The notes beneath the pieces were generated by a model, which saw only the letters and a program-made list of their open reading frames with translations, had not been told where the DNA came from and did not search any database. From a virus, in the IMG/VR virus record IMGVR_UViG_3300044682_000028, positions 1-38,724 of that record: a DNA stretch of 38,724 bases; one strand, 5' to 3'. The position numbers and the translations under genes are program-made. Each line of letters opens with the position of its first letter. The first letter of the stretch is position 1. Shown here piece after piece: positions 1,081 through 38,098 of the stretch.

Positions 1081-2355
1081 GTGGCAAATAACCTCTTAAC
1101 CGACTCTCACATCACCGCGGAAGCGCTGATGATCCTCGAGAACAATCTGATGTTCACAAAACAAGTGGACAGACAGCTCGACCAGGAATTCAAAAACGCC
1201 AAACGCGGCGCCGTGATTAGCGTTCGCAAACCGCCAAGATACGTGGTCCGAGATGGCCAAAACATCGCCATTCAGGACACCGTACAAACGCAGGTCCCTT
1301 TCACCTTGTCGCATCAATTCGGCGTCGACGTCGAATTCTATTCCGCGGATTTGGCGCTGTCCATCTCCGATTTCGGAACGGAAATTCTCGCGCCGCAAAT
1401 GGCCGCGATTGCGAACGCGATCGACTACTCGGGCATGCAACAAGCGTTGAACGTCCCGAACGCGGTCGGTACGCCGGGCGCGACCTTCGCCGGCACGCAA
1501 ACCGCACAGCAGACGCTAAGCACCTTCACGACCGCGAATGCATTGCTCGACAAGAACGCTTGTCCGCGCGATGGCAACAGGGCGGCGGTCATCAACGAAG
1601 ACGCGCAAGCCATTCTCGTCGCGAATCTCTCGGGGCTCTTTCAGGATGGCGACGATATCGCGCGCCAGTACCGCGAGGGAACGATGGGCAAGACCGTCGG
1701 CAACAAATTTACGATGGATCAAAACGTCGCCTCGTTCACCATCGGCGCGTTCTCGGGTACGGCTCTGGTGAACGGCTCGGGGCAGGGCGTTCTCACGCCT
1801 CCCGGTCAAGGTCTCGGGCAGGGCGGCTACACGCCGTACACGCTGCTCGTGAAGGGCTTCACGCCGGGTACGCTCGTCGCCTCAAACGGCGATCGCTTCA
1901 CACTGCCGAATACCTTTGGCGTCAATCCGCAATCGCGCGCCACGTGGAACAGGCTGCAACAGTTCGTCGTTCTGAATACCTCGCCTGTGATCTCGGATGG
2001 CTCGGGGAACGCGGCGCTGCAAATCTATCCGCCGATCATCGGGCCCGGCACGGCTTACACGACCGTGACACGGCTTCCGCTGAATAACGACGCTTTGACC
2101 TTCATCGGTACGCCGGGCACGGTCACACCGCAAAACTTGGTTTTCCATAAAACCGCGTTCACCTTCGCTTGTGCAAACCTCCCGCTACCGGGCGGCATGC
2201 ACATGGCCGCGCGCAAAGCGGATAAGCAGCTCGGCATCTCGCTGCGTTTTGTGGCCGGCTACAACATCGCAACCGATCAATTCATCGGCCGTTTCGATGT
2301 TCTCTGCGGCTGGCTCACGCAACGGCCTGAGCTCGCGTGTGTGGTGTACGGCTAG
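1081..2355 (+). CDS. Major coat protein, P22 gp5 family (HK97 fold)
   Basis: This 424-residue protein is the major capsid subunit (P22 gp5 is 430 residues). The N-terminal part resembles the P22 coat family: a helix-rich start (LLTDSHITAEALMILENNL), then VRKPPRY and a PFTLSHQFGVDVEF strand region, and a C-terminal stretch with MHMAARKADKQLGISLRF. The middle (about 190-300) probably corresponds to the inserted domain typical of this family. Translation starts at GTG 1081, with AGGA at 1067-1070 ten bases upstream. It follows the scaffold gene, as in P22. Nothing appears truncated. Members of this family form icosahedral heads around scaffold and portal. Confidence 0.93.
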   Translation: MANNLLTDSHITAEALMILENNLMFTKQVDRQLDQEFKNAKRGAVISVRKPPRYVVRDGQNIAIQDTVQTQVPFTLSHQFGVDVEFYSADLALSISDFGTEILAPQMAAIANAIDYSGMQQALNVPNAVGTPGATFAGTQTAQQTLSTFTTANALLDKNACPRDGNRAAVINEDAQAILVANLSGLFQDGDDIARQYREGTMGKTVGNKFTMDQNVASFTIGAFSGTALVNGSGQGVLTPPGQGLGQGGYTPYTLLVKGFTPGTLVASNGDRFTLPNTFGVNPQSRATWNRLQQFVVLNTSPVISDGSGNAALQIYPPIIGPGTAYTTVTRLPLNNDALTFIGTPGTVTPQNLVFHKTAFTFACANLPLPGGMHMAARKADKQLGISLRFVAGYNIATDQFIGRFDVLCGWLTQRPELACVVYG

Positions 2356-2384
2356 ACGCTTTTCCCAAAGGAGACAACTTATCA

Positions 2385-2891
2385 ATGAAAACTCTGACTC
2401 TCACTCTGGCGGCGCTCCTCGCCTCCGTCTCGCTCTACGCGCAAGCTCCCGGTCAAACCATCACGCCGGCGCCGGGGCAGTTCTACCCGATCACGCCGTC
2501 GTCGACTGTTCCGGCCGCGAGCGGCTCTTACATCTCGCCCGTCGTGGTCTCCACGGCGCCGACGTATCTGCAGGTCTGCGGAAGTTACAACATCTGGTAC
2601 TACAACTGGCAAACCGGCGCGCTCTACGGCTGCGTGAACGGCGGGCTGATTCCTCTGCCGCTGATGGAGCGCACCGGCACCACCAACAACACCGATCAAT
2701 CGGGCTTTATTACGCTCGTCGCGGGCGCGGCGACGTACACGTTCACCGGCACCTACGTGACGGCTCCCGTTTGCACGGCGTCGGACACGACCGCGCTGGC
2801 GCTCGTCAAACCGACTACGACGAATACGACCCTTTCCCTTACCGGCACGGGTACGGACGTCATTGCTTACTCCTGCACGGCACGCACCTAA
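2385..2891 (+). CDS. Small exported Thr-rich protein next to coat
   Basis: This 168-residue protein opens with a classic Sec signal: MKT, a hydrophobic stretch to about residue 19, and an AQA cleavage motif near residue 21. The mature part is rich in Thr, Ser and Ala and looks all-beta, with four Cys in two pairs (about 66/86 and 127/164) that could form disulfides. Its end (TFTGTYVTAPVCTASD, then TLSLTGTGTDVIAYSC) resembles a small domain seen in many phage fibre and host surface proteins. A strong AAAGGAGA at 2367-2374 sets the ATG at 2385. The place after coat would suit a head decoration or head fibre, but a cytoplasmically assembled virion protein should not need a signal peptide. It may instead act in the host periplasm or on its surface. 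Function is unknown. Confidence 0.75.
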   Translation: MKTLTLTLAALLASVSLYAQAPGQTITPAPGQFYPITPSSTVPAASGSYISPVVVSTAPTYLQVCGSYNIWYYNWQTGALYGCVNGGLIPLPLMERTGTTNNTDQSGFITLVAGAATYTFTGTYVTAPVCTASDTTALALVKPTTTNTTLSLTGTGTDVIAYSCTART

Positions 2892-2934
2892 AAGCGCGCG
2901 GCGCATACAACCTCGAAAGGACAAACAGAACACT

Positions 2935-3228
2935 ATGGCGGCTCCCACTAAATCCGTACAGCATCTGCAGAACACCGGCCATCACTGGCTAGAGAAAGAT
3001 CAGGCGCAACCGGCCTACGCGGTGCAGGAATTCCCGAAAACCATGCACCATAAAGACGGCTCGACGGCGACCGTCTTTGATCCAGCCGGCCAAGCCAAAC
3101 TCGGCTCCGACTGGGAACAATCGCCCGCAATTTGGGCCGATCGGCGCGCGAAGGAAGCGGCCGACAAAGACGCCAAAGACAAAGCAGCGGCCGACAAAGC
3201 CGATGCGAAAGACAGCGGCAAGAAGTAG
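2935..3228 (+). CDS. Small hypothetical structural-region protein
   Basis: This 97-residue protein has no family I can name. Residues 1-65 are mixed, with HKDGSTATVFDPAGQAKLGSDW suggesting a small beta-rich unit. The last 35 residues are a run of Lys, Ala and Asp (repeated ADKDAKDKAA-type units), probably a helical or disordered tail. ATG 2935 follows GAAAGGA at 2915-2921. It lies between the exported protein and gp4, in a place with no P22 counterpart. Codon use matches the structural genes. A minor head protein is possible but unproven. Confidence 0.7.
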   Translation: MAAPTKSVQHLQNTGHHWLEKDQAQPAYAVQEFPKTMHHKDGSTATVFDPAGQAKLGSDWEQSPAIWADRRAKEAADKDAKDKAAADKADAKDSGKK

Positions 3229-3241
3229 TTAAGGCAAACTC

Positions 3242-22485: not shown

Positions 22486-23466
22486 ATGTCCACTCTCCCC
22501 GTACCACCCGAACAGACGACGCTGTTCGAAACTGGTGTAGACGTGTCATCCGTCCGTGCCGTGAGGGATCGCTTGTTAAAGTCTGCCCATGCTCACAATA
22601 CTGTCCGCGCCTATGCGTTCGCCTGGCGCTCTTTTCGCGCCTGGTGTGTCGACGCTGGCCGGGCTTCTCTGCCCGCTTCTCCCGATACCTTAACGCTGTT
22701 CGCGGCTTGGTGCGTCGAGCAAGGCTTCCGGCTGCAGACGATTCAATTGCGACTGGCCGCAATCCTGCGCTATCACGTCGAAGCGGGTCTGCCGACGCCG
22801 ATGGACGACTCGGTGCGCGAATTACTCGCCAGTGCGGCGCGGGAGAAGCGCGAACCAAAGGCCGGTAAGGCGGCGTTAACGCTGCGGCAATTGCGGCGCA
22901 TGTGTACCTTGCTGCAGAACGATGCGAGCACCATCAGCACGCGCGATTGTGCTTTGCTGCTGCTCGGCTTTGCGGCCGGTTGGCGGCGTTCCTCGCTCGC
23001 TTCGCTCGATCTCTCCGATGTGGACTTTCGGCGCCGCGGTATGCTCGTCGTTCTGCGTTCCTCGAAGACCGATCAAGAGGGCCGCGGCTTGCTGGTCGGC
23101 ATTCCGTACGGCGACTCGGAGCTCACCTGTCCGGTACGTGCGCTCAAGGCCTGGGTGAAGGTGCGCGGCAGTTGGCCGGGTCCGTTGTTTACGCGCGTCT
23201 CGCAGATCGGCAACGTCTTGAGCAAAGGGCTGACGGGCGAAACCGTCAATGATCGCGTGAAGCGGGCGTTACTGCGTATCGGCGTCAATCCCGACGCCTA
23301 CGGGGCGCATTCGCTGCGCGCCGGCTATGCGACAACGGCCGCGGAAGCGGGCGCCTCAGATATCGCCATCATGCAGCGGGCGGGCTGGAAGTCGATGCAA
23401 ACGGTATTGCGTTACGTGCGGCCGGCGCGAGCGTTTCGGGCGAATCCGATGCGCGGCGTCCTCTAA
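22486..23466 (+). CDS. int: Tyrosine-type integrase
   Basis: This 326-residue tyrosine recombinase marks the phage as temperate. The N-terminal core-binding domain spans about 20-115 (SAHAHNTVRAYAFAWRSF). The catalytic domain shows the expected residues: Arg167 in GWRRSSL, Lys194 in RSSKTDQEG, His275-x-x-Arg278 in HSLRAG, Trp301 in GWKS, taking the place of the second His, and the nucleophile Tyr310 in VLRYVR. The length is normal for a simple XerC/D-like or phage integrase without a large arm-binding domain. ATG 22486 is used. It is transcribed away from the replication operon and ends before two terminators. The attachment site is not identified. Confidence 0.95.
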   Translation: MSTLPVPPEQTTLFETGVDVSSVRAVRDRLLKSAHAHNTVRAYAFAWRSFRAWCVDAGRASLPASPDTLTLFAAWCVEQGFRLQTIQLRLAAILRYHVEAGLPTPMDDSVRELLASAAREKREPKAGKAALTLRQLRRMCTLLQNDASTISTRDCALLLLGFAAGWRRSSLASLDLSDVDFRRRGMLVVLRSSKTDQEGRGLLVGIPYGDSELTCPVRALKAWVKVRGSWPGPLFTRVSQIGNVLSKGLTGETVNDRVKRALLRIGVNPDAYGAHSLRAGYATTAAEAGASDIAIMQRAGWKSMQTVLRYVRPARAFRANPMRGVL

Positions 23467-25038: not shown

Positions 25039-25548
25039 TTAGCTCCTGATGAGTGAAATTTTGCTTGAGAGTCGGCAACCCCATGCGGCCGGGTCGGCGT
25101 CTTCGAGCGCGGCAAGCGCGCGTTTGATCGCGACTTTGTCGGGCGTGGCGGGCGGTACTTTCGGCGTGTTGAAATAGGCGCGCGGAATGAGCGACTCGTC
25201 GACAATCTCGAGCGCTTCCGCGGCCGTTTGCAGGCGCATGGCGCAACGCACGCCGTTGACGCTCTTCAATCCGGCCGCGTCCATGCGCCGGATGATCTCG
25301 TCTTCTAAGCGCGCAATGCGGGCGCACGTTACGGCTTTCAGGCGCTGAAAGGTTTTGATTTCGGCGGCGTATTCGGCGGTACGCTTTTCGAGCGCCTCGA
25401 GCAAGCGGTTAGCCTGCTCGACTTTGTATTTGAGTCGCGATTCGGCGGCGCGCTCGTCGTTCGCGGCGGCTTTGCGCTCGACGATCGACGCGGGGCGCGG
25501 GGCGGCGAATAGCGCAAGGTTTGCGTACGCGCTTTTCGGGAGTGCCAT
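25039..25548 (-). CDS. Gp157-family protein
   Basis: This 169-residue protein matches the siphovirus Gp157 family. The core is a long coiled coil (about 35-90: SRLKYKVEQANRLLEALEKR, then LEDEIIRRMDAAGLKSVNG). A beta segment follows (VRCAMRLQTAAEALEIVDES), then IPRAYFNTPKVPPATPDKVAIKRAL. The last positions (AWGCRLSSKISLIRS) match the GxxLxxxxSLxIR end seen in the family. Members lie in early recombination/replication regions, often near SSB or annealing proteins; the exact role is unclear. It starts at ATG 25548, directly after the Pro-rich gene. Confidence 0.82.
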   Translation of the reverse strand: MALPKSAYANLALFAAPRPASIVERKAAANDERAAESRLKYKVEQANRLLEALEKRTAEYAAEIKTFQRLKAVTCARIARLEDEIIRRMDAAGLKSVNGVRCAMRLQTAAEALEIVDESLIPRAYFNTPKVPPATPDKVAIKRALAALEDADPAAWGCRLSSKISLIRS

Positions 25549-27423: not shown

Positions 27424-28029
27424 GTGAAGTCTTCCCTTCTCTTCTTGGCGTGGGCGCTGTGCGCGCGCGGCCAAACGTCGCCGGCTGCCGCGGCGACTTC
27501 GATCACGATCGCCGTCAACATTCCGGTCACAACCGGGCCGGCGCAAACCATCCAAGTGTCCATCCCTCTCCAGACTCTCGCGAACGCGCTGGCGCCGCTA
27601 CTGCCGGCCGCGCTCTCGGTGCCTCCCTTCTCGCTCGGCAATTCGGGCGCGCTGTGGTGGGTCGACCGCAACGGGGTAAACCCTCCGCAAGCGGGCGCCG
27701 GGCCTTTCGTACTGGATATTTTGCCGTTAGTGGTGCCGCGGCTCACGGCCGTAAATCAATTCGCGGGGCTGCAGCTGTTTCACGGCGGCGTCGAATTGCA
27801 GGACGGCACCATCACGACGGGCTACGCCGATGGCGAGACGCCGGCCGGCCTGGTGGACGGGAAGAACGCGGCGTTTACGCTGGCGCATGCGCCGGTCGCG
27901 GCGCCGGCGCTTTTCCTGAATGGGCTGCTGCAGCGCACGCCGGCCGATTACAAGCTGACGGGCGCGGCGCTGGTGTTCGCGGCGGCGCCGGATCCCGCGG
28001 CGACGATTACGGTGTTCTATCGCTGGTAG
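27424..28029 (+). CDS. Exported protein with a phage fibre-type C-terminal domain
   Basis: This 201-residue protein begins with a Sec-type signal (KSSLLFLAWALCARGQTS, cleavage near residues 16-22). The middle is Pro/Thr/Ala-rich. The end (VDGKNAAFTLAHAPVAAPAL, then FLNGLLQRTPADYKLTGAAL and ATITVFYRW) is a small beta module found at the ends of many phage fibres and host surface proteins. It starts at GTG 27424, which overlaps a GAAGGAG sequence. A second exported protein lies next to coat (2385). An exported phage protein in front of the terminase genes suggests a role in the host envelope, for example receptor masking. This is inference. Confidence 0.7.
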   Translation: MKSSLLFLAWALCARGQTSPAAAATSITIAVNIPVTTGPAQTIQVSIPLQTLANALAPLLPAALSVPPFSLGNSGALWWVDRNGVNPPQAGAGPFVLDILPLVVPRLTAVNQFAGLQLFHGGVELQDGTITTGYADGETPAGLVDGKNAAFTLAHAPVAAPALFLNGLLQRTPADYKLTGAALVFAAAPDPAATITVFYRW

Positions 28030-28041
28030 CGCGGCGCGTCT

Positions 28042-28437
28042 TCACGTGATCGTCACACCATTCAGACCGATGGCGGCGTTCGCGGTTGCGGTTGCTTCCC
28101 GAATCAGGCGAATCGCGGCGCTGCGATCGGCGCACGCCGGGCAGGCCTGCAGGATCAGGCGCGCGAAGTCGAGGGCGCCGTGACTCACGGCCTCCATTTT
28201 CGCCTGCTGCGTCCCCGAAATGTCGTGAGAGGAGAACACCTCGGCCAAAAGGGCTTCTTGTTCGGTCGGCAACGCCGAGAAGACGAAACCGCGCGGCATG
28301 GTCTGCGCGCCGGCCGGGTGCGGGCGTTCCGGTTCGGGCTGCGTTTTCGGGCTGGCGGCGTCGTTGCCACGGTAGCCGAGAGAACCCGCGGCGGCGGCGG
28401 GCGGCGTAGTGCGTTTCTGAGTCGTCGAGTCGCTCAT
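28042..28437 (-). CDS. Acb2/Tad1-hairpin-like protein, possible cyclic-nucleotide sponge
   Basis: This 131-residue protein has an N-terminal Pro/Ala-rich extension (1-52) and a helical C-terminal domain. The core (about 76-128: SGTQQAKMEAVSHGALDFAR, then CPACADRSAAIRLIREATAT and ANAAIGLNG) has the pattern of the Acb2/Tad1 hairpin family: a helix, CPxxxDRS, AxxxxREA and TANAAI. Characterised members bind cyclic oligonucleotides and so block CBASS or Thoeris immunity. I recognise the family by eye only, and cannot check the pocket. It is a - strand gene among late + strand genes, preceded by an HTH gene whose stop it overlaps by four bases. Confidence 0.6.
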   Translation of the reverse strand: MSDSTTQKRTTPPAAAAGSLGYRGNDAASPKTQPEPERPHPAGAQTMPRGFVFSALPTEQEALLAEVFSSHDISGTQQAKMEAVSHGALDFARLILQACPACADRSAAIRLIREATATANAAIGLNGVTIT

Positions 28438-28631
28438 GTGGGGAGTGTACCGCCTAAACCCTTTGTTTGTCGTCGGCAGTCCCTCCGGTAGCGCTCGTGC
28501 TCGCGCTGGCGGTACGCCTCGACGGCCGCGGCTGTGGCCTCTAAAGGTTTGCCCGTGTGGGGTGAGTCAATCTGTCCTGACGTCATCAGGCGTTGAGCGG
28601 TGCGCGTTGACACGCCTAGGACTTGTGCCAC
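28434..28631 (-). CDS. Small HTH protein upstream of the Acb2-like gene
   Basis: This protein of about 65 residues is a single MerR/excisionase-type helix-turn-helix (VAQVLGVSTRTAQRLMTSGQ, then IDSPHTGKPLEATAAAVEAY) with a basic end. GTG 28631 is the first usual start. An in-frame CTG at 28646 would restore a more typical LTPKEVAQ beginning, and a stop (28652) lies just above it, so the real start may be CTG. Its stop overlaps the next ATG (28437). The pair forms a two-gene - strand unit, and by analogy with anti-CRISPR-associated regulators it may control the unit. Confidence 0.7.
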   Translation of the reverse strand: MAQVLGVSTRTAQRLMTSGQIDSPHTGKPLEATAAAVEAYRQREHERYRRDCRRQTKGLGGTLPT

Positions 28632-28863
28632 TTCTTTCGGGGTCAGAAATTAATAGCCGAAATTGCCACATGCGATTAGGCAGCGTGTTCGCCTCCTATT
28701 TTCCCTCTATTTGGAGTAATTCGAGCAACATTACGCGCCATACGCGCCATACGCGCCAAATGTTTTGCCGCGGCCGGCGCCGGGCGCATGCTCAAATTGC
28801 GGCGCGAGACACCACTTACTCCCCTTTTCCTTGGCATTCGGTCCTCGGCGCCGCGGCTCTCCC
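28632..28863. other. Intergenic stretch with a 9-bp triple repeat
   Basis: This gap divides the leftward HTH gene from rightward genes, so it must hold divergent promoters. None is clear. The word tacgcgcca occurs three times without a gap (28732-28758). The first part (28,650-28,730) is relatively A+T-rich. A - strand frame through the repeats gives Met-Ala-Arg repeats and is not judged a gene. Confidence 0.5.
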
Positions 28864-28965
28864 GTGAGTTTCCGCGGGCTGCGGCTCTTATGCCTGCGCT
28901 ATCTTCTGGCCGCGGCGTGCCTGCTTTCAGCTTTGACGGTCGGCGCCTCCGCAATTATTCGGTGA
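28864..28965 (+). CDS. Tiny membrane peptide
   Basis: This 33-residue frame starts at GTG 28864 and has one hydrophobic stretch (LLCLRYLLAAACLLSALTVG) after a basic start, like a small membrane peptide or a signal sequence. Its stop overlaps the GTG of the next gene (GTGA at 28962-28965), the coupling style used across this genome. No ribosome site is obvious. It could be a holin-like or leader peptide. Support comes from the overlap and the hydrophobic segment only. Confidence 0.4.
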   Translation: MSFRGLRLLCLRYLLAAACLLSALTVGASAIIR

Positions 28966-29216
28966 AAGCCTGCCTGCATCTCGAAGGGCTTTCGCTCGTG
29001 ACGGTCCGGCGAAATATACACGGGTCTCCTCGCTCGCTGCATTTTCGCGACGCCACGGGCGGAAGTCCGATGCGCGCCACGGCGAAGCTGGGGCAGCGCT
29101 ACTCGTTTCAGGTGCGCGTCGGCGACGACACGCGCTGCTGGACGCACAAAGAGCTCGATACGGGCCGCGGAATGTTTCAAAGCGTGCTGGTTGGCGCTAT
29201 TTCACAGGAGTCTTAA
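28962..29216 (+). CDS. Hypothetical protein before terminase genes
   Basis: This 84-residue protein (KACLHLEGLSLVTVRRNIHG, then SLHFRDATGGSPMRATAKLG and SFQVRVGDDTRCWTHKELDT) looks beta-rich. It starts at GTG 28962, overlapping the stop of the tiny membrane peptide. An AGGAG for the following gene lies at its very end (29207-29211). No family is known to me. Its place just before the terminase operon may be accidental. Confidence 0.6.
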   Translation: MKACLHLEGLSLVTVRRNIHGSPRSLHFRDATGGSPMRATAKLGQRYSFQVRVGDDTRCWTHKELDTGRGMFQSVLVGAISQES

Positions 29217-29221
29217 CCTTT

Positions 29222-29488
29222 ATGGGCTGGATGAGTTTAGTTTTGGCAATGTTGCAGCTGGCGCCGACGCTGCTGGCGGCGATTACGGACGTAGAAACCA
29301 CGATCAAGGGCGCGCACTTGGGAAAAACCAAGAAAGCGCTCGTGATGGCGGCGGTCTCGACCGCGACGGATCATAAACCGGCGATTCTGCCGGCCGTCTC
29401 CGAGTACATCGATACGGCGGTAACGGCATTAAACGCGGCGTCGGTCTTCACGCACGCGCTCACGACGCCGGCGACTCCCGCGTCCTAA
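29222..29488 (+). CDS. Small helical protein upstream of terminase
   Basis: This 88-residue protein has a hydrophobic N-terminus (about 4-20: MSLVLAMLQLAPTLLAAI) and a helical body (KTKKALVMAAVSTATDHKPA, then AVSEYIDTAVTALNAASVFT). AGGAG at 29207-29211 is ten bases before ATG 29222. The next gene starts directly after its TAA. Similar small proteins often lie beside phage lysis or terminase genes. A membrane-associated role is possible. Confidence 0.75.
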   Translation: MGWMSLVLAMLQLAPTLLAAITDVETTIKGAHLGKTKKALVMAAVSTATDHKPAILPAVSEYIDTAVTALNAASVFTHALTTPATPAS

Positions 29489-30007
29489 GTGTTCGAAGCG
29501 ATCAAGCATCCGCGCAAACGCTGCTTTCTCGGCGCGTATAGCCTTACCGGCAACATCAAATTCGCGGCCGGCTGCGCGGGCGTGCGCCGCGAGCTGCACT
29601 ATGATTGGCGCGCCGCGGATCCCGAGTACGCGGCGGCGTTTCTTCGCGCGAAAGAGATGGCCGGCGACGCGCTCGAGGACGAATGCAAGCGGCGCGCGCA
29701 TAAGGGAACTAAGGAAGTCGTGCTGTACCAGGGGAAGCCGGTCTATCTCGAGAAGGTCTCGGCCGATGGCGTCGTGACGCGCAAGGCGCTCCAGCGCGTG
29801 AAGTATTCCGACTCGATGATGATGTTTTTACTCTCGGGCCTGAAGAGCGAGACGTTCCACGAACGCCGCGAAATCGCGCATTCGGCGCCGGAAGCGATCG
29901 CCCTGAAAGTCGACGTGACACATAAGGCCGATTTGAGCGGCCTCTCTGAAGATGAGCTCTCTTACCTCGAGCGGCTCGCCGCAAAACTTAATTTCTCTAC
30001 TTCGTGA
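29489..30007 (+). CDS. terS: Terminase small subunit
   Basis: This 172-residue protein has the features of a small terminase that recognises the packaging site. An N-terminal helix-turn-helix (about 8-45: KRCFLGAYSLTGNIKFAAGC, then AGVRRELHYDWRAADPEYAA) is followed by FLRAKEMAGDALEDECKRRA and the block YSDSMMMFLLSGLKSETFHE, which is typical of the family in front of its oligomerisation end. It starts at GTG 29489, right after a TAA, and overlaps the large subunit by 56 bases. P22 gp3 has the same genomic place. Confidence 0.85.
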   Translation: MFEAIKHPRKRCFLGAYSLTGNIKFAAGCAGVRRELHYDWRAADPEYAAAFLRAKEMAGDALEDECKRRAHKGTKEVVLYQGKPVYLEKVSADGVVTRKALQRVKYSDSMMMFLLSGLKSETFHERREIAHSAPEAIALKVDVTHKADLSGLSEDELSYLERLAAKLNFSTS

Positions 30008-30695
30008 CGCCGAAGCGGAGCGGCTGCGAAGGACTGGTCGACTCATTGATAGCTACTTTCCCAACACCGGAGAACATCGGCGAGAACGGTACGTCAAACA
30101 TCTGGACTTTTTCAAGGCCGGCGCGACGCACCGAGAACGCCTGTTTATGGCCGGCAATCGCGTCGGCAAGAGTGACACGGGCTGCTACGAAGACACGCTG
30201 CATCTCACCGGCGACTATCCGCACTGGTGGGAAGGCCGGCGCTTTGCGTGTCCGGTAGAGTGCTGGATTGCGGGCGAGACCAATCTCACCGTGCGCGACA
30301 TTCTCCAGAAGAAGCTGCTCGGCGCCTGGGGCTCATTTGGCACGGGGATGATTCCGCGCGACGCGATCGTGCATTGGACGGCCAAGCGCGGCGTTGCGGA
30401 TTCGGTGGATACCGTTTTCGTGCGGTCTCTCAATGGTGGGGTCTCGAGCTTATCGTTCAAGAGTTACGCGGAAGGGCGCCAAAACTTTCAGGGCACGGCG
30501 AAACACGTCATTCACTTCGACGAAGAGCCCAGTCAAGAAACGTATATCGAGGCTTTGCTGCGCACCATGATCGTGCCCGGCTGTGACACGGGCGGCTTGA
30601 TGATGGTCACATTTACACCCATAGAAGGTTGGTCGACATTGATAGAAGACTTCCTCGCCGGCGTCGAGTCTCAGAACGCCGCGCCGAGTGAATAG
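29952..30695 (+). CDS. terL: Terminase large subunit, ATPase half (split gene)
   Basis: This 247-residue protein is only the N-terminal motor domain of a large terminase, the ATPase that pumps DNA into the head. It shows the Walker A motif at 67-74 (AGNRVGKS), Walker B at about 185-192 (HVIHFDEE) and the coupling motif at 220-223 (TFTP). A KHLDFFKAGATHRERLF block precedes the P-loop, as in relatives. A stop follows at the point where other terminases enter a linker to the nuclease. The nuclease half is encoded alone 4 kb away (34686-35408); together they give 487 residues, a full-length terminase. The start ATG 29952 has GAAG next to it and lies inside terS. Confidence 0.92.
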   Translation: MSSLTSSGSPQNLISLLRDAEAERLRRTGRLIDSYFPNTGEHRRERYVKHLDFFKAGATHRERLFMAGNRVGKSDTGCYEDTLHLTGDYPHWWEGRRFACPVECWIAGETNLTVRDILQKKLLGAWGSFGTGMIPRDAIVHWTAKRGVADSVDTVFVRSLNGGVSSLSFKSYAEGRQNFQGTAKHVIHFDEEPSQETYIEALLRTMIVPGCDTGGLMMVTFTPIEGWSTLIEDFLAGVESQNAAPSE

Positions 30696-31617
30696 CACGC
30701 TGTACGTCGTTACGCCGATCTTCAACCCGGCCGGTTTTCGCGCGCGGGCTCGCCTGTACCATCCCTTCGCGGCGCACATGGCCGCATCCGGCGCTGTGCT
30801 CGTCACGGTCGAGGCGGCTTTCGGTGATCACGGCTTCGAGGTAACGGACTCGTTCGATCCGATGCATCTGCAGCTGAGAACCTCGGCCGTCCTGTGGCAT
30901 AAAGAGCGCATGATTAACCTCGGTATCGCGCATCTGCTGCGCCTGGTCCCGGACGCGCAGTACATTGCCTGGATCGACGCCGATGTGACGTTTTCAAATC
31001 CCGATTGGGCGGCGCAAGCGGTCCATCAGCTCATGCACCATGCTGTGATTCAGCCGTACTCGGAAGCGATCAGCCTGGACGCGAAAGAACAGTATTTGTG
31101 GAATTGTCCGTCGTCGTTTCGCTCCTACATCGACGGGCGCGGCTACCACCAGACGCCGCCGCTCCCGGCGAGCTACATCTATAAAGGGCATCCGGGGCTC
31201 GCCTGGGCCGCAACGCGCTCGGCGCTCGATTCACTCGGCGGGCTGTACGATACCTGCGTTGCCGGCTCGGGCGATACGGTCATGTCGAACTGTCTCAAGG
31301 GGCAATGGGATGTGTACCTGCCGGCGCCTCCGTCCGCGGGCATGGCGGCTTCGATGGAACGTTGGGCGGCGCGCTGCGATCGCTCGATCCACGCGAACGT
31401 CGGCTACGCGAACGGTTCACTCTTGCACCATTGGCACGGTCGCAGCGAAGCGCGCGGCTACGAGAAGCGCTGGTCGATTCTTTCGTATCATCAATTCGAT
31501 CCGGTGCATGATCTCGTCATCGACTCGCAAGGGATGTACGCCTGGGCCGGCAACAAACCGCGCCTCGAAGACGATATCCGGTTAAGTCTCACGTCGCGCA
31601 ACGAGGATGAGTTTTAA
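30688..31617 (+). CDS. GT-A type glycosyltransferase-like protein
   Basis: This 309-residue protein has a glycosyltransferase A fold signature: TLYVVTPIFNPAGFRAR at the start, a DxD motif (Asp97 and Asp99 in WIDADVTF) for metal and sugar-nucleotide binding, then YKGHPGLAWAATRSALDSLG and AGSGDTVMSNCLKG. The HHWHG stretch near the end is typical of a phage group of this type. It starts at GTG 30688, eight bases inside the terminase ATPase gene. It is the first gene of the insert between the terminase halves. Targets could be virion proteins, DNA bases or host surface sugar; sequence does not tell. Confidence 0.82.
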   Translation: MNSTLYVVTPIFNPAGFRARARLYHPFAAHMAASGAVLVTVEAAFGDHGFEVTDSFDPMHLQLRTSAVLWHKERMINLGIAHLLRLVPDAQYIAWIDADVTFSNPDWAAQAVHQLMHHAVIQPYSEAISLDAKEQYLWNCPSSFRSYIDGRGYHQTPPLPASYIYKGHPGLAWAATRSALDSLGGLYDTCVAGSGDTVMSNCLKGQWDVYLPAPPSAGMAASMERWAARCDRSIHANVGYANGSLLHHWHGRSEARGYEKRWSILSYHQFDPVHDLVIDSQGMYAWAGNKPRLEDDIRLSLTSRNEDEF

Positions 31618-31843
31618 TGGGGCGATGCACTGGTCCTGGACTACCTTCTTCGCTGAATTGGCGGGCGGGCTGGTCGGCGCGTTCGTCGGCGGTTGCCTGT
31701 GGCTCTTTGTCGTGGCGCCGCGGCTTGTCGATCGCCTCATCGCGCAACGGCTCGACTCGGAACACGGCACGCTGCTAAAAAACACGATCGCGGCCGGCGT
31801 GGCGGCGGCCGCGTTTGCCGACGAGCTCGAGCGGCGGAATTGA
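31607..31843 (+). CDS. Single-span membrane protein, holin candidate
   Basis: This 78-residue protein has one long Gly-rich membrane segment (about 14-38: FFAELAGGLVGAFVGGCLWL) followed by a basic stretch (APRLVDRLIAQR) and an amphipathic Ala-rich helix. Translation is set at ATG 31607, inside the glycosyltransferase gene; ATG 31625 is an alternative. Small single-span proteins in a late operon may be holins or spanin-like factors. No lysozyme lies beside it. The role is uncertain. Confidence 0.7.
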   Translation: MSFNGAMHWSWTTFFAELAGGLVGAFVGGCLWLFVVAPRLVDRLIAQRLDSEHGTLLKNTIAAGVAAAAFADELERRN

Positions 31844-32173
31844 ATGCTCTTCTACACCTCGATCCGCGATGATGCAGACGGCCGCTATTTAGGTTGGGTC
31901 TTCTACAACGCTCCCACGCCGGACGCGGCGAACGCGCACGCGGCGCACCTCTTCGCGCAAGCGAAGTCGATCGAGGGCGGGGGGCCTCTCGTCCTGGCGC
32001 TCGAAATCGATACCGTCGCGGTCGCGCCGGGCTCGATCGGTCTGCCGGCCGATTGCATCGGGCGCTTACTTGGGCGCGCCGATCTCGCCCGCGTCGAAAT
32101 TCTCGATCAAGAGCGCATGTTCCGAATGGCGCGCCGCGAAAAAACCTCGGATACTGCAAAGAGGCCTAACTAG
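31844..32173 (+). CDS. Hypothetical protein in the terminase insert
   Basis: This 109-residue protein (LFYTSIRDDADGRYLGWVFY, then APTPDAANAHAAHLFAQAKS and RLLGRADLARVEILDQERMF) seems an alpha/beta domain. ATG 31844 directly follows the previous TGA. I know no family. The ordered hydrophobic pattern and tight spacing make a real gene likely. It stands third in the insert between the terminase halves. Confidence 0.7.
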   Translation: MLFYTSIRDDADGRYLGWVFYNAPTPDAANAHAAHLFAQAKSIEGGGPLVLALEIDTVAVAPGSIGLPADCIGRLLGRADLARVEILDQERMFRMARREKTSDTAKRPN

Positions 32174-32193
32174 GTCGATGGAGAGTGGATCCG

Positions 32194-32328
32194 ATGGCAA
32201 CCAAGACGAAAGCAAAGAGCGGCAAGTCGGCCGTTGTGCCGACGAAAGCAATGAGCTCGACGAGTAAGGCGAAGGGCGGCAAGGCGACGAAAGCGGCGCG
32301 CCGGCCGGCCAAGAGCGAAACCTCGTAG
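32194..32328 (+). CDS. Tiny Lys/Ala-rich basic protein
   Basis: This 44-residue protein is almost entirely Lys, Ala, Ser and Thr (ATKTKAKSGKSAVVPTKAMS, then AKGGKATKAARRPAK), like a histone H1 tail. GGAGAG lies about seven bases before ATG 32194. Such proteins can bind DNA without sequence preference. Being expressed with packaging genes, it could condense DNA or enter the head. It is too short for the usual gene finders. Confidence 0.6.
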   Translation: MATKTKAKSGKSAVVPTKAMSSTSKAKGGKATKAARRPAKSETS

Positions 32329-32355
32329 CAGCGAAATTCTGAAAAGTTTGGGCGC

Positions 32356-32396
32356 GGGCGTTGTTCCCACTGATCCGGGAACGGCGCCCTTTTTTT
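32356..32396 (+). terminator. Strong intrinsic terminator inside the late operon
   Basis: The arms gggcgttgttccc (32356-32368) and gggaacggcgccc (32377-32389) pair over 13 bases with two G-T pairs. They are followed by seven T (32390-32396). The next gene's ATG is the very next base (32397). Downstream late genes then need read-through, antitermination or a new promoter. Confidence 0.85.
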
Positions 32397-32681
32397 ATGG
32401 CTAAAAAATCATCTGCGTGGGCGCATAAGAACGTCCCGAAGTTTTCCAAACCTCCGACGCCGGCCGCGTCTACCGTGCTCGATCTGGTGTTGATCTGGCG
32501 CGACTCGGCCGACGTGGTGCATACGCCGAGTGGCTACCTGCCGGCGACGTCGTACGAAGCGGTACGCGCCGAAAATCCCGCGCTCGCGCTTCCGCCGCTC
32601 TCTGAAATTCCGGTGCATTCGAAAGAATGGGCGCTCGAAGCGTCGGCGCGGATGGCCGCGGAGTGTCCGCGCGTCCAGTGA
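32397..32681 (+). CDS. Hypothetical protein starting right after a terminator
   Basis: This 94-residue protein begins with a basic stretch (KKSSAWAHKNVPKFSKP), followed by VLDLVLIWRDSADVVHTPSG and a helical end. ATG 32397 touches the T tract of the terminator, so it has no ribosome site. In-frame TTG 32361 would start inside the hairpin and add 12 residues. Its TGA overlaps the ATG of the next gene (TGATG). No known family. Initiation may depend on whether the hairpin forms in the mRNA. Confidence 0.65.
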   Translation: MAKKSSAWAHKNVPKFSKPPTPAASTVLDLVLIWRDSADVVHTPSGYLPATSYEAVRAENPALALPPLSEIPVHSKEWALEASARMAAECPRVQ

Positions 32682-33424
32682 TGGGCCGGGCGCGTCTGCG
32701 CGTGCAACAAGCCGCGATGATCGGCCGGCGCGATCGCCGGAAAGAGCTCAAGCGTACGGCCAAAGCGCGCGAACGTGAGCGCGTGGCGTTCGTCGCGATT
32801 GATTGGTACTTTTACAAACAACGATTTTCACCCGCGCCGCGCGCCGGCCTGCTGCAAACCAGTTTGAGCGATGCGAGCAATGCGAGTAACTGGGCCGCGC
32901 TCACAACGGCAGAAATACGCGCCCTCGACGCCAAAGCGAACGCTTACCTGGTCTCACGCGGGCAAAGCATCACGGCGCGCGACGTCCACAATTACGCAAC
33001 GGGTTCCTCTTTTTACATGCAACAAGCGACCAACCGATTAAGCGCTCAAGACAAGCGCGAACGCAAAGCCATGATCGACGAATACGGCGACCTCGTGAAA
33101 CGACTGGCGCCGGTCAAACCCGATATGTCGCGCCTCACGACGTTGACGGCCGCGATTCGCAGCTGGTATGAAGATGCGGACGCGACGGCGAGCGTCTCGG
33201 CGTTCGGCGAGCGCTACGTGGTCTCGCTCGGGCCGCGCGGCAATCAAACCAAAATCGAAAACATGCAAGACGTCTTCGCGGCGCTCGGCCGTGAGCGTTT
33301 TCTCTCCGTCTGCTCGCTCTCGCTCGCGAACCTGGCGGCGGCGCTCGACAATCCCGATGCGTACACGGTCTCGGAGCAAACCGGGCCGCGGCCGTTGACG
33401 GTGCAGGACACGGGCGGCGGCTAA
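32681..33424 (+). CDS. Hypothetical protein with basic N-terminus
   Basis: This 247-residue protein has a strongly basic helical start (RRDRRKELKRTAKARERERV), then WYFYKQRFSPAPRAGLLQTS and a mainly helical body (LTTAEIRALDAKANAYLVSR, then QATNRLSAQDKRERKAMIDE). No motif known to me is present. Its ATG overlaps the previous stop. The basic start suggests nucleic-acid or membrane contact. It is the largest gene of the insert after the glycosyltransferase. Confidence 0.7.
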   Translation: MGRARLRVQQAAMIGRRDRRKELKRTAKARERERVAFVAIDWYFYKQRFSPAPRAGLLQTSLSDASNASNWAALTTAEIRALDAKANAYLVSRGQSITARDVHNYATGSSFYMQQATNRLSAQDKRERKAMIDEYGDLVKRLAPVKPDMSRLTTLTAAIRSWYEDADATASVSAFGERYVVSLGPRGNQTKIENMQDVFAALGRERFLSVCSLSLANLAAALDNPDAYTVSEQTGPRPLTVQDTGGG

Positions 33425-34084
33425 ATGCACGGCGCCGACTGGAACGTCCAAACCCTCTACGCCTTTTTCGAAGCGGCGTATCAGGAAATCGGGCGCGACG
33501 TCGAATCCCGCTTTGCGGCAAACGAGGTGCTCGCGCAATCACGCCGCAACGCGCTCGAGATTGCGTTGAAAGCGGTGGAAGACCTCGCAAGCCTGGCGCA
33601 CACCGACATTGAGAAGTCGATTCTCAAGGCAGAACGAGACACGGATCGGCGCTTCGACGCCGCGGCGCTGGCCGCGGAGAAGGCGGTTCAGAAGGCCGAA
33701 ACCGCGACGGATAAGCGCTTCGAATCGGTGAACGAATTCCGCAAGACTTTGTCGGATCAAACCGCGCTTTTCGTCCCGCGTACGGAAGTCGATAAACGCT
33801 TCGACGCGGTCGACGAGTTCCGCTCGCGCTCGACGACGACGATTGCGGCGTTTGTCCCGCGCGGCGAAATTGAAGCGGGGCTGCGCGCGATTAACGACAA
33901 GCTGGCGAGCGAAGTCAAGAGCATCAACGAACGCTTAGGCGCGCTCGGGCTGCAGCTCACCGCCGTCGTGGAAACCAAAAACGGCGCGCGGCAGAACTGG
34001 GCCATGATCGCGATGGCGATATCGATTACGGCGCTGATCGTGGGCATTGTGATGACGTTCGTACGCTTCGCGGGGGGTAAATAG
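33425..34084 (+). CDS. Coiled-coil protein with C-terminal membrane anchor
   Basis: This 219-residue protein is a long coiled coil with internal repeats (DKRFESVNEFRKTLSDQTAL and DKRFDAVDEFRSRSTTTIAA, each followed by FVPR) and one C-terminal membrane segment (about 193-214: WAMIAMAISITALIVGIVM). Such proteins are common in phages near lysis genes; the role is not known. It starts at ATG 33425, immediately after the previous stop, and ends six bases before the beta-barrel gene. Together with the two neighbours it may form an envelope-acting unit. Confidence 0.75.
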   Translation: MHGADWNVQTLYAFFEAAYQEIGRDVESRFAANEVLAQSRRNALEIALKAVEDLASLAHTDIEKSILKAERDTDRRFDAAALAAEKAVQKAETATDKRFESVNEFRKTLSDQTALFVPRTEVDKRFDAVDEFRSRSTTTIAAFVPRGEIEAGLRAINDKLASEVKSINERLGALGLQLTAVVETKNGARQNWAMIAMAISITALIVGIVMTFVRFAGGK

Positions 34085-34090
34085 GAAACC

Positions 34091-34483
34091 ATGATCGTCA
34101 AGGCGACACGCGAAGGGATGCTCGGCGACATGACGGCGTCGGGCTGGCGCATTGATGCGACTCGTCTGTTCTGCGCGCTCCCGTCAACCAAAGCGCTGCG
34201 GCGTAGCGTCCTGATTACCAATCCGGCGAACGGTAAAAGCACGCGCGCGGAAGTGCTCGACGTCGGGCCCTGGAACGTCCACGATGATGCGTACGTGCTC
34301 GGCGGCTTACGTCCGCTGGCCGAATCCGGCCACAAAATCAACCTGCTCGGGCAGATGGTGCAAGGCATAACGAACGGCGCCGGCATCGACTTGGGCGAGG
34401 CAGTATGGGCGGCGCTCGAAATGACGAATAACGGGCCGGTCGACTGGCACTTCGACGACATCGAATTGACGGCGGCGGCGTGA
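34091..34483 (+). CDS. RlpA-like double-psi beta-barrel protein, endolysin candidate
   Basis: This 130-residue protein resembles the double-psi beta-barrel domain of RlpA-type peptidoglycan enzymes: TREGMLGDMTASGWRIDATR, then LPSTKALRRSVLITNPANGK, AEVLDVGPWNVHDDAYVLGG and NGAGIDLGEAVWAALEM. The Asp residues in DVGPW and GIDLG are at the usual active-site strand ends. In P22 a lysozyme follows the holin; no lysozyme, amidase or transglycosylase of a standard type is visible here, so this is the best candidate for the lysis enzyme. AGGAAA precedes ATG 34091. It lacks a signal peptide. Confidence 0.7.
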   Translation: MIVKATREGMLGDMTASGWRIDATRLFCALPSTKALRRSVLITNPANGKSTRAEVLDVGPWNVHDDAYVLGGLRPLAESGHKINLLGQMVQGITNGAGIDLGEAVWAALEMTNNGPVDWHFDDIELTAAA

Positions 34484-34689
34484 GCGATACGAACGCGGAC
34501 GCCATTCTCGAAGAGAGTTTGCTCGACTACATCGCGGAGTGCGATCGCGAAACGGCCGAAATGATGCGGACGCAAAGCGGCCACTACGCGCCGGGCTATA
34601 GCGATCAAACCGCGAATCACAGGCCCTGGACGCCGGAACGCTATGCGCGCCGGCAGGCGGCGCGCGACGAAAAAAAGCGCGGGGCGTGA
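34480..34689 (+). CDS. Small hypothetical protein before the terminase nuclease half
   Basis: This 69-residue protein is acidic at the start (DTNADAILEESLLDYIAECD) and basic at the end (RPWTPERYARRQAARDEKKR). It starts at GTG 34480 overlapping the previous stop, and its TGA overlaps the GTG of the nuclease gene. It is the last gene of the insert. No family is known. The double overlaps suggest tight translational coupling of lysis-like genes to the nuclease. Confidence 0.65.
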   Translation: MSDTNADAILEESLLDYIAECDRETAEMMRTQSGHYAPGYSDQTANHRPWTPERYARRQAARDEKKRGA

Positions 34690-35408
34690 GCAAATACGTC
34701 GTGCAGGCGGGCTGGGCGGACGCGCCGCATTTGTCGCCGGCCGTCTGCGAGGAGCTGCTCGCCAGTATCCCGTTTCACCAGCGCGAAGCGCGCATGAATG
34801 GCACGCCGGCGCTCGGCGACGGCAAGATCTACCAGGTGCCCGAAGAGGACTTCCGCATCGCGCCGTTCGTGATTCCGCCTCACTGGAAACAAGCCTACGG
34901 GCTCGATGTCGGCATCAATCGCACCGCGGCCGTGTTCGGCGCGCTCGACGAAGACTCAGACATCCTCTATCTCCACTCGCTGCATTATGCGGCCGACGCG
35001 ATCGCAGCGATTCATGCGGAAGCGATCAAGGCGCGCGGCGCCTGGATTCCCGGCGTGATTGATCCGTCCGCACGCGGGCGCAATCCGGTCGACGGCGAAC
35101 GCCTCATCGAAGTGTATGAACGGCTCGGCCTGCATCTCTCGCTGGCCGACAATTCCGTCTCGGCCGGCATCTACGCCGTGACGCAACGGCTCGTCTCGGG
35201 CCGGCTGAAGGTGTTCGCCTCGCTCTCCGAGTGGTTCGGCGAGTATCGCTTGTATCGGCGCGTCAAGGGCAAAATCGTCAAGGAAAAAGATCACGCCATG
35301 GACGCGACGCGCTACCTCGAGATGAGCGGGCTCGCAATCGCCAAAGCGGCGCCGGCGCCTCCCTCCTGGGACCAGCGGCGCACGGGCTCGAGTCGCTGGA
35401 GCGGCTAA
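34686..35408 (+). CDS. terL: Terminase large subunit, nuclease half (split gene)
   Basis: This 240-residue protein is the RNase-H/RuvC-fold nuclease half of a large terminase, which cuts packaged DNA. The first 65 residues (KYVVQAGWADAPHLSPAVCE, then SIPFHQREARMNGTPALGDG) are the linker region that in other phages is continuous with the ATPase. The metal-binding Asp residues are in place: Asp74 (YGLDVGINRT), Asp126 (GVIDPSARGR) and Asp202/Asp206 (EKDHAMDATRYL). The first residues after the GTG at 34686 are already homologous, so the break is at the domain boundary. The two halves must work as separate chains or be joined in some way. It overlaps the previous stop by three bases. Confidence 0.92.
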   Translation: MSKYVVQAGWADAPHLSPAVCEELLASIPFHQREARMNGTPALGDGKIYQVPEEDFRIAPFVIPPHWKQAYGLDVGINRTAAVFGALDEDSDILYLHSLHYAADAIAAIHAEAIKARGAWIPGVIDPSARGRNPVDGERLIEVYERLGLHLSLADNSVSAGIYAVTQRLVSGRLKVFASLSEWFGEYRLYRRVKGKIVKEKDHAMDATRYLEMSGLAIAKAAPAPPSWDQRRTGSSRWSG

Positions 35409-35413
35409 CTACT

Positions 35414-35626
35414 ATGCAAGATCATCCGACCGATTACCACGGGTACGTCCCGAATTCGTATGACGAGAACGCCGCGCCTCCGGATGTGCCGGCGCCACGT
35501 CGCGAAGAACCAAGCATCAATGATGCGCTCGTCGAGTTTCAGCGCATGACCGACGACCAGCAAGAAGCGTTCATCGAACGCCTGCAGGAATGGCAACGCA
35601 CGCACGTGGCGCCGGCGCTCTGGTAA
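35414..35626 (+). CDS. Small hypothetical protein between terminase and portal
   Basis: This 70-residue protein is Pro-rich and acidic at the start (QDHPTDYHGYVPNSYDENAA) and helical at the end (MTDDQQEAFIERLQEWQR). ATG 35414 lies five bases after the nuclease stop. No family is known to me. Its place in the packaging gene line suggests a minor head or packaging factor. It converges with a - strand gene one base later. Confidence 0.65.
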   Translation: MQDHPTDYHGYVPNSYDENAAPPDVPAPRREEPSINDALVEFQRMTDDQQEAFIERLQEWQRTHVAPALW

Positions 35627-35938: not shown

Positions 35939-38098
35939 ATGAAAACTCCTGCGTTGACGAAACCGCGCGCGAAGAAAACCGGCGCCGCGCTCGAGACTTT
36001 TTTACGTGTCATGCGAGAACGGTTCAACTCGATCGAAGAGGCAGAGCGCGACATACGCAACGACGCGCTCGAGGATTGGCAGTTTCGCGCCGGCGACCAA
36101 TGGGACGAAGAAATCGAACGCGCGCGCACCGCGGACGATCGCCCGTGCTACACCATCAACCGGGTACAACAAATCGTTCGACACGTCACCAACGAGCAAC
36201 GCCAGCAACGGCCGGCGATCGAAGTTTCGCCGGTGGGCGATGGCTCGGACGTCTCAACCGCGGAAGTGCTGCAGGGCGTAACGCGCCACGTGGAAGCGAA
36301 TTCCGACGGCGATATCGCGTACGATACGAGTTTCGATTCGATGGCGACGGGCGGCTTCGGCTATTTTCGCCTGGCGCCGGAATACCTGCACGCCAAGAGC
36401 TTCGATCAAGAACCGAAATTTCATCGGGTGCTCAACCCGTTCTCGGTCTACTGTGGGCCGGCGAAAAAAGCCGATTACTCCGACATGCGCTATTGCATCG
36501 TGACGGATGACATTCCGCATGATGTTTTCGAAGCCGAATATCCGCAATCGGAGCTCGCCGGGCTGAATGAATTCTCGGGCGAAGGTGATCGGGCGCCGGG
36601 CTGGATCCGCGGCGACGGCGTGCGTGTCGCCGAGTACTTCTACATTGAATCGGAAAAACGGACGATCGTGATGGGGCGCGACTCGAAGGTGTACTTCGAA
36701 GACGAGCTGCCGCGCGGCGTCAAGATCGCGACGAATCCGAAAACCGGCGAACCGTACAAGCGCGAGACCGATATCGATACCGTCTATTGGTGTAAAACCA
36801 ACGGCGTCGAACTACTCGAAGATGAAATCGAAGTAGCTTGCGACTACATCCCGGTTGTGCCCGTCCTCGGTGAAGAATTCATCGTCGAAGGGCGCCGCTA
36901 TCTGGTCGGCGTGGTGCGCTACTCACGCACTCCCAACCAGATGTATAACCTCTGGACGTCGGCGATGGCCGAAACGATCGCGCTTGCGCCGAAAGCTCCC
37001 TGGATCGCCACGCCGGCGCAAATCGAAGGCTTCGAGCGCTACTGGAATTCCGCCAACGTCACGAACTGGTCGACGCTGCTTTACAACCCGGACGCGAAAG
37101 CGGCCGGCGCGCCCCATCGCGATTTCGCGGAACCTCCGATTCAAGCCATTTCAGAAGCGCTCGGCCACGCCGATATGGACTTGAAAAATACCTCGAGCTT
37201 CGATCCCGCGCTCGCGCAACATGGGCCGGAACAGAGCGGCAAAGCGCTGATCTTACGCCGGCAGAATAGTGATCAAGCCAACTTTGGATTTCAGGACAAC
37301 ATGGCGCGGGCGGTGCGGCATGGCGGGCGCATTGTCGTGTCGATGTGGCAACGCCTGGCCGATGTGCCGCGGACCGTGCGCGTGCTCAACCCTGACGGCA
37401 CGAAGGACCAGGTACAACTCGGCGTGCAAACCACCTACAAGGGCGCGCAAAAGGTGTTCGATTTGACGATCGGCGATTACGACGTCGCGGTCTCGACGGG
37501 TCCTTCGTATCAGTCACGCCGGCAGGAAGCAACCGAAAGTATCCTCGGGCTGGTGCAGAGCTTTCCGCCTCTCATGCAATTCTGCGGCGACTTGCTGGTG
37601 CGCGATATGGACTGGCCGCAATCGCAAGAGATTGCCGATCGCTTGAAGAAAATGCTTCCGCCGGCGCTGCAGGATCCCGCGGACGGCTCGCAACCGATTC
37701 CGCCACAAGCGCAGCATACGCTCGCCAATCAGGACCAGATGATTAAGCAGTTGACGACGGCGGTGCATGCCATGTCGGCGAAGCTCGAAGCGCAACAAAT
37801 TCAGAGCGCGTCACGCGAACGCATTGCGCTCATTAACGCGCGCGCCGGCATCCTCGAAGCGGCGCTCAAGGCCTCGAGTACCGAAGCGCTCGCGATCTTC
37901 AACGCGGATCTGGCGCAGATTGATCGGCAAATCGCACTGATCCCGGATCCCGCGCTCGGACAAGAAGCCGACGCGCCGGCTACCGGCCAAACCGCACCGG
38001 CACCAGCAACGCCGGCTGCTCCGGGGCCTCCAACGATCGCGGCGGCGCCTCCTGGCGCGGCGCCGGCCGCGGCGCCGGCTGCTCCCCCTGGAGCGTAG
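35939..38098 (+). CDS. Portal protein, P22 gp1-like
   Basis: This 719-residue protein is the portal, a dodecameric channel through which DNA enters the head (P22 gp1 has 725 residues). Family blocks are visible: ERDIRNDALEDWQFRAGDQW, then PCYTINRVQQIVRHVTNEQR, FDSMATGGFGYFRLAPEYL, NPFSVYCGPAKKADYSDMRY, and GVVRYSRTPNQMYNLWTSAM. The last 150 residues hold a helical barrel-like part (LANQDQMIKQLTTAVHAMSA) and a Pro/Ala-rich tail. ATG 35939 has no evident ribosome site and lies 14 bases from a divergent gene. The scaffold gene follows across the join. Confidence 0.95.
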   Translation: MKTPALTKPRAKKTGAALETFLRVMRERFNSIEEAERDIRNDALEDWQFRAGDQWDEEIERARTADDRPCYTINRVQQIVRHVTNEQRQQRPAIEVSPVGDGSDVSTAEVLQGVTRHVEANSDGDIAYDTSFDSMATGGFGYFRLAPEYLHAKSFDQEPKFHRVLNPFSVYCGPAKKADYSDMRYCIVTDDIPHDVFEAEYPQSELAGLNEFSGEGDRAPGWIRGDGVRVAEYFYIESEKRTIVMGRDSKVYFEDELPRGVKIATNPKTGEPYKRETDIDTVYWCKTNGVELLEDEIEVACDYIPVVPVLGEEFIVEGRRYLVGVVRYSRTPNQMYNLWTSAMAETIALAPKAPWIATPAQIEGFERYWNSANVTNWSTLLYNPDAKAAGAPHRDFAEPPIQAISEALGHADMDLKNTSSFDPALAQHGPEQSGKALILRRQNSDQANFGFQDNMARAVRHGGRIVVSMWQRLADVPRTVRVLNPDGTKDQVQLGVQTTYKGAQKVFDLTIGDYDVAVSTGPSYQSRRQEATESILGLVQSFPPLMQFCGDLLVRDMDWPQSQEIADRLKKMLPPALQDPADGSQPIPPQAQHTLANQDQMIKQLTTAVHAMSAKLEAQQIQSASRERIALINARAGILEAALKASSTEALAIFNADLAQIDRQIALIPDPALGQEADAPATGQTAPAPATPAAPGPPTIAAAPPGAAPAAAPAAPPGA

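Follow-up and report, generated by a model that had tools for sequence, protein, structure and literature searches.

The question raised by this locus is whether a small minus-strand gene set between plus-strand neighbours encodes a sponge of the Acb2/Tad1 hairpin family, as a first-pass annotation of the sequence had proposed, and which nucleotide signal of host defence such a protein could still bind. The window, meaning the whole stretch of DNA analyzed, is a complete 38,724-base IMG/VR virus record from an uncultured, soil-type bacteriophage. Because integrase, scaffold, coat, portal and terminase genes are all present, the phage is judged from its gene content to be temperate and tailed, with head genes of the P22-like type. 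The genes that define this setting are the following.

76-1023, 1081-2355 and 35939-38098: scaffold, coat and portal genes
22486-23466: integrase gene
27424-28029 and 29222-29488, plus strand: genes flanking the two-gene unit
29952-30695 and 34686-35408, plus strand: terminase large subunit gene, split

Within the unit itself and immediately upstream of it, these features are distinguished.

28042..28437, minus strand: protein of 131 aa with an ATG start, assigned to the Acb2/Tad1 hairpin family through PF24729, phrog_1454 and an HMM of 62 relatives
28045..28272, minus strand: conserved core, residues 56-131, predicted by AlphaFold2 as a short helix and a two-helix hairpin
28273..28437, minus strand: Pro/Ala-rich N-terminal extension, residues 1-55, without regular structure in the AlphaFold2 prediction
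28228..28230, minus strand: Ser70 (TCT), aligned with the family Tyr position (T4 Y8, PaMx33 Y11)
28183..28185, minus strand: Ser85 (AGT), aligned with the family Arg/Lys position (T4 K23, PaMx33 K26)
28434..28649, minus strand: small HTH_17/excisionase-like DNA-binding protein (PF12728, TIGR01764)
28732..28758, upstream of the HTH gene: three perfect head-to-tail copies of the 9-bp repeat TACGCGCCA

The reading frame of the 131-residue protein is intact, and the two motifs reported earlier for its translation, CPACADRS and REATATANAAI, are both present. GC content at the three codon positions (0.64/0.58/0.79, a GC3 of 0.79) is like that of the confirmed genes of the window, and the plus-strand ORFs that overlap the gene have codon-position GC unlike these confirmed genes.

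Membership in the Acb2/Tad1 hairpin family, as first proposed, is backed by Pfam, family-HMM and PDB-profile searches, and the predicted fold fits. The profile search for a hairpin-family match returned PF24729 (Acb2_Tad1_hairpin) as the sole Pfam match of the protein (E=6.1e-5, residues 71-123), though its 23.6 bits, and the 24.9 bits obtained in the genome search, are under the curated cut-off of 27 bits. The same model scores 35-73 bits on eight sampled relatives and 71 and 66 bits on the Acb2 proteins of T4 (Vs.4) and PaMx33, respectively, all over the cut-off. An HMM built from 62 phage relatives, from which the window protein was left out, scores it at 78.2 bits (E=1.8e-26), and the best of 2000 shuffled versions of the protein reached 9.8 bits. 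The near-clade HMM assigns 8.0 bits to T4 Acb2 and 4.0 bits to PaMx33 Acb2, neither separable from shuffles, so the link to these two proteins rests on Pfam. When a two-clade profile was searched against 177,635 PDB sequences, Acb2 homolog 43 (9ptq) ranked first (E=1.8e-4), and Tad1 sequences and T4 Vs.4 were among the first ten, at weak E-values of 0.035-0.13; phmmer with the protein found no match in the PDB. The PHROG matches, phrog_1454 (E=3e-7) and phrog_31113, are both families of unknown function, and PADLOC gave no match for the gene. On these sequence comparisons, assignment of the gene as a divergent member of the known Acb2/Tad1 hairpin family is well supported, despite the sub-threshold direct Pfam score.

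Relatives were collected in three scans: an alignment-based scan of viral contigs yielded 80 loci, a scan of bacterial genomes, using the REAVMTAN pattern only, yielded 11 loci, several of them in Planctomycetota and Acidobacteriota bins, and a third scan yielded 80 loci of a sister clade. The nearest protein from an isolate phage is gp101 of the Tunturiibacter (Acidobacteriota) phage Tunturi_1, with 38% identity over 68 residues. When the full protein and the core were each scanned as single sequences against viral contigs, no close relative emerged but one locus (L103, 45% identity), and no sister carrying both Ser70 and Ser85. The soil-phage hairpin proteins (L005-L103, Tunturi_1 gp101 and phrog_1454) have 35-50% core identity to the window protein and a common (A/S)D(Q/R)(S/T)AAIR..RE....ANA helix; unlike the window protein, they retain FxYHxP and IR, and most of them are 68-80 aa long, lack a long tail and are co-oriented with their neighbours. 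The soil-phage clade L005-L084 has a near-invariant AAIR(K/L)(L/I)RE(A/C)VMTANA helix, a striking degree of constancy in a protein presumed to take part in an arms race, part of which reflects the search patterns.

Alignment with the relatives places approximately 55 residues of the protein ahead of the usual family start, an extension that most relatives lack. The first-pass annotation had called this Pro-rich extension unusual, but other annotated hairpin proteins among the structural matches in BFVD include members of 118-195 aa, and a long extension is thus not unique.

AlphaFold2 predicts helices at residues 58-67, 75-98 and 103-124 of the whole protein and no regular structure over approximately residues 1-57, with per-block pLDDT values of 63-83 before residue 58. 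The core modelled alone (mean pLDDT 94.9, pTM 0.76) has helices at core positions 4-12, 20-43 and 48-69, and the two models agree. Both contain the hairpin-domain architecture of a short helix and a long antiparallel helical hairpin, and Acb2 has been described as having a single short helix and two long antiparallel ones (PMC12043709). In BFVD, entries named Acb2/Tad1 hairpin protein make up the best five matches and 15 of the 23 best, the highest-ranking having a probability of 1.00. Among solved structures, VIA-align ranks T4 Vs.4 with cGAMP (7UQ2) first, at Z 7.8/7.1, the latter for the core model, where unrelated hairpins reach 6-7, and Acb2 8H2X, second with the core model, scores Z 7.0/6.5, again with the core value last, against the same 6-7 for unrelated helical hairpins. 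Foldseek found no significant match to either model in the PDB (best E 1.6 and 3.2), and 9ptq and Tad1 are absent from the VIA-align listings for the models, an absence that does not exclude them. The predicted fold is thus supportive of a likeness to Acb2, and not decisive.

Compared with Acb2 (PaMx33 ORF24; T4 Vs.4; 8H2X, 7UQ2), the protein is likewise a small phage protein with the same Pfam domain, and Acb2 structures are the best VIA-align matches of its modelled short helix and two-helix hairpin. It differs in its low identity (~16%), a shorter hairpin loop, the N-terminal extension of ~55 aa and the replacement of both the pocket Tyr and the pocket Lys by Ser. Tad1 (8KBB, 7UAV) also contains the hairpin motif at the second helix of the family (E 0.035-0.13), but it has an N-terminal antiparallel beta-sheet ahead of its hairpin (PMC12043709) and no strand occurs in either model of the window protein. 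With this beta-sheet domain absent, the earlier suggestion of Thoeris inhibition is not supported, and the Tad1/Thoeris reading was rejected.

The dinucleotide pocket is where the protein is most distinctive. In the alignment, T4 Y8 and PaMx33 Y11 fall on the tyrosine of the FxYH segment and T4 K23 and PaMx33 K26 on the arginine of IR, a spacing of 15 positions, and both positions are Ser in the window protein. Y11 and K26 are important residues of the cyclic-dinucleotide pocket in PaMx33 Acb2. In the alignment of all relatives, Tyr and Arg are kept in 134/134 other sequences, a count that for Tyr is biased by the search patterns of two scans, and the window protein alone among the 135 aligned sequences has lost either residue. 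For the bacterial-genome loci, Arg is kept in 11/11 and Tyr in 10/11; in the remaining locus (L102), an FxYH segment could not be recognised. The Tyr is also missing from Acb2 homolog 43 (9PTQ), the top-ranked PDB sequence for the family profile, where Thr takes its place; this protein keeps Lys at the second position, and the match is at E=1.8e-4 only. The T4 substitution Y8A disrupts both function and the binding of cyclic dinucleotides (PMC12657218), a salt bridge holds the cGAMP phosphates (PMC10419184), and Acb2 has separate and independent pockets for cyclic trinucleotides, at the trimer interface, and for cyclic dinucleotides (PMC12043709). Since Tyr and Arg are both Ser, the canonical dinucleotide pocket of the window protein is predicted to be impaired; the trinucleotide site may be retained, and a specificity that is trinucleotide-only, altered or lost is possible.

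A sponge mechanism is likely in outline, with an uncertain ligand and a putative role in anti-defence. Like Acb2, the protein would probably form a small oligomer joined by its two-helix hairpins, and this oligomer would sequester a nucleotide second messenger of host defence, such as that of CBASS or type III CRISPR. With Ser at both positions 70 and 85, an active form would most likely have a ligand outside the ordinary cyclic dinucleotides; cyclic trinucleotides, bound at the interface of a hairpin trimer, are one example. Even chances are given to this reading of the gene as a divergent Acb2/Tad1 hairpin sponge that sequesters a defence second messenger, likeliest not an ordinary cyclic dinucleotide. 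It is quite improbable that the protein is a sponge which, having lost its dinucleotide pocket, keeps the trinucleotide-binding trimer interface only or has gained a new ligand.

The same substitutions could instead mark a degenerate sponge of Acb2-type descent that no longer binds nucleotides and is either in decay or kept by hitch-hiking. Met117 and the two otherwise invariant positions have all changed, the ATATAN segment resembles a local repeat change (GCAACC GCAACC) and the partner ORF has no normal start, but the reading frame is intact with phage-typical codon-position GC and most other conserved core positions are retained (F68, H71, Q77, P100, D104, R110, R113, E114, T118 and A119-N120). 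Decay is regarded as unlikely, though deserving some weight. Distinctly unlikely is a hairpin protein that has been repurposed, for example to bind a nucleotide unrelated to defence or another protein, and to which the flexible N-terminal tail contributes a further function. The loss of the canonical contact residues, a tail of ~55 residues without predicted regular structure and the extreme degree to which the second helix of the clade (REAVMTANAA) is conserved, odd for an arms-race gene, would fit such a change of role; the tail, however, has no recognised domain or function, further long annotated members exist and the conservation is due in part to the search patterns. It is very improbable that the protein is a normal cyclic-dinucleotide Acb2 with full activity, its pocket accommodating Ser in place of both residues: the Thr of the solved 9ptq indicates that the Tyr is not universal, but 9ptq retains its Lys, T4 Y8A loses cyclic-dinucleotide function (PMC12657218) and no other aligned sequence has lost either residue.

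The Acb2 family is common in phages, and the range of ligands decides which defences are blocked. A natural member without both dinucleotide-contact residues would help to separate the two pockets, and such a member would also put to the test the proposal in PMC12657218 that, to avoid Panoptes, phages shift Acb2 away from the dinucleotides of the guard. Should the dinucleotide pocket be lost and binding be trinucleotide-only or directed at a new ligand, then in a host with such a guard the phage could block trinucleotide CBASS without triggering a Panoptes-type guard, which senses dinucleotide depletion. Should the protein be inactive, the locus would mark a sponge gene in decay. Failing that, the known Acb2/Tad1 hairpin family is extended to one more uncultured phage.

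The two-gene minus-strand unit with an HTH protein, lying amid plus-strand genes, was confirmed from the ORFs and the strands of the flanking genes. The HTH ORF matches PF12728 (E=3e-7, 31 bits, over the cut-off of 27) and TIGR01764 (E=1e-6, 29 bits vs a cut-off of 28.8), and a single-sequence scan of viral contigs found no close relative of it. The ORF has no ATG; the frame is open right after a TAA at 28650-28652, and the GTG at 28631, its first common start, is the likeliest start of the gene. Since the frame opens exactly at the start of the Pfam HTH domain, a non-standard start or a disruption of the frame is possible. In another frame of the same strand, the upstream stretch 28650-28697 has a strong AGGAGG at 28692-28697 and an ATG at approximately 28670-28671. 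The HTH stop and the ATG of the hairpin gene overlap in ATGA, through which translation of the hairpin gene is probably coupled to that of the HTH gene, and the HTH protein, encoded by the first gene of the minus-strand unit, may regulate the unit. Four copies of TACGCGCCA occur in the window, three of them in the tandem array; a total of four was reached in 0 of 100 shuffles, and the repeats are possibly an operator. The search for a sigma-70-like promoter at the unit gave none, and sites resembling terminators are at chance level.

The description of this arrangement as a typical anti-defence layout did not hold among the relatives. By simple ORF calls, their neighbours are mostly co-oriented with the hairpin gene (49/60 upstream and 48/62 downstream), and no recurrent HTH neighbour is evident, one being apparent by eye in L082 only. 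A conserved unit of HTH and hairpin genes was rejected on this neighbour survey, as the minus-strand pairing is not a feature of the family.

Two further observations concern the phage itself. Although its head genes are P22-like, the phage encodes a Mu Gam-like DNA end-protection protein on the minus strand at 25039-25548 (phrog_253, E=1.4e-15). In the split terminase large subunit gene, the first part stops near position 154 of Terminase_6N and the second restarts at 165 and has Terminase_6C, with ~4 kb and several ORFs between them; a search of 28000-35500 with Rfam found no intron family. In the relative L090, the terminase large subunit gene is unbroken (1813-3240, 475 aa).
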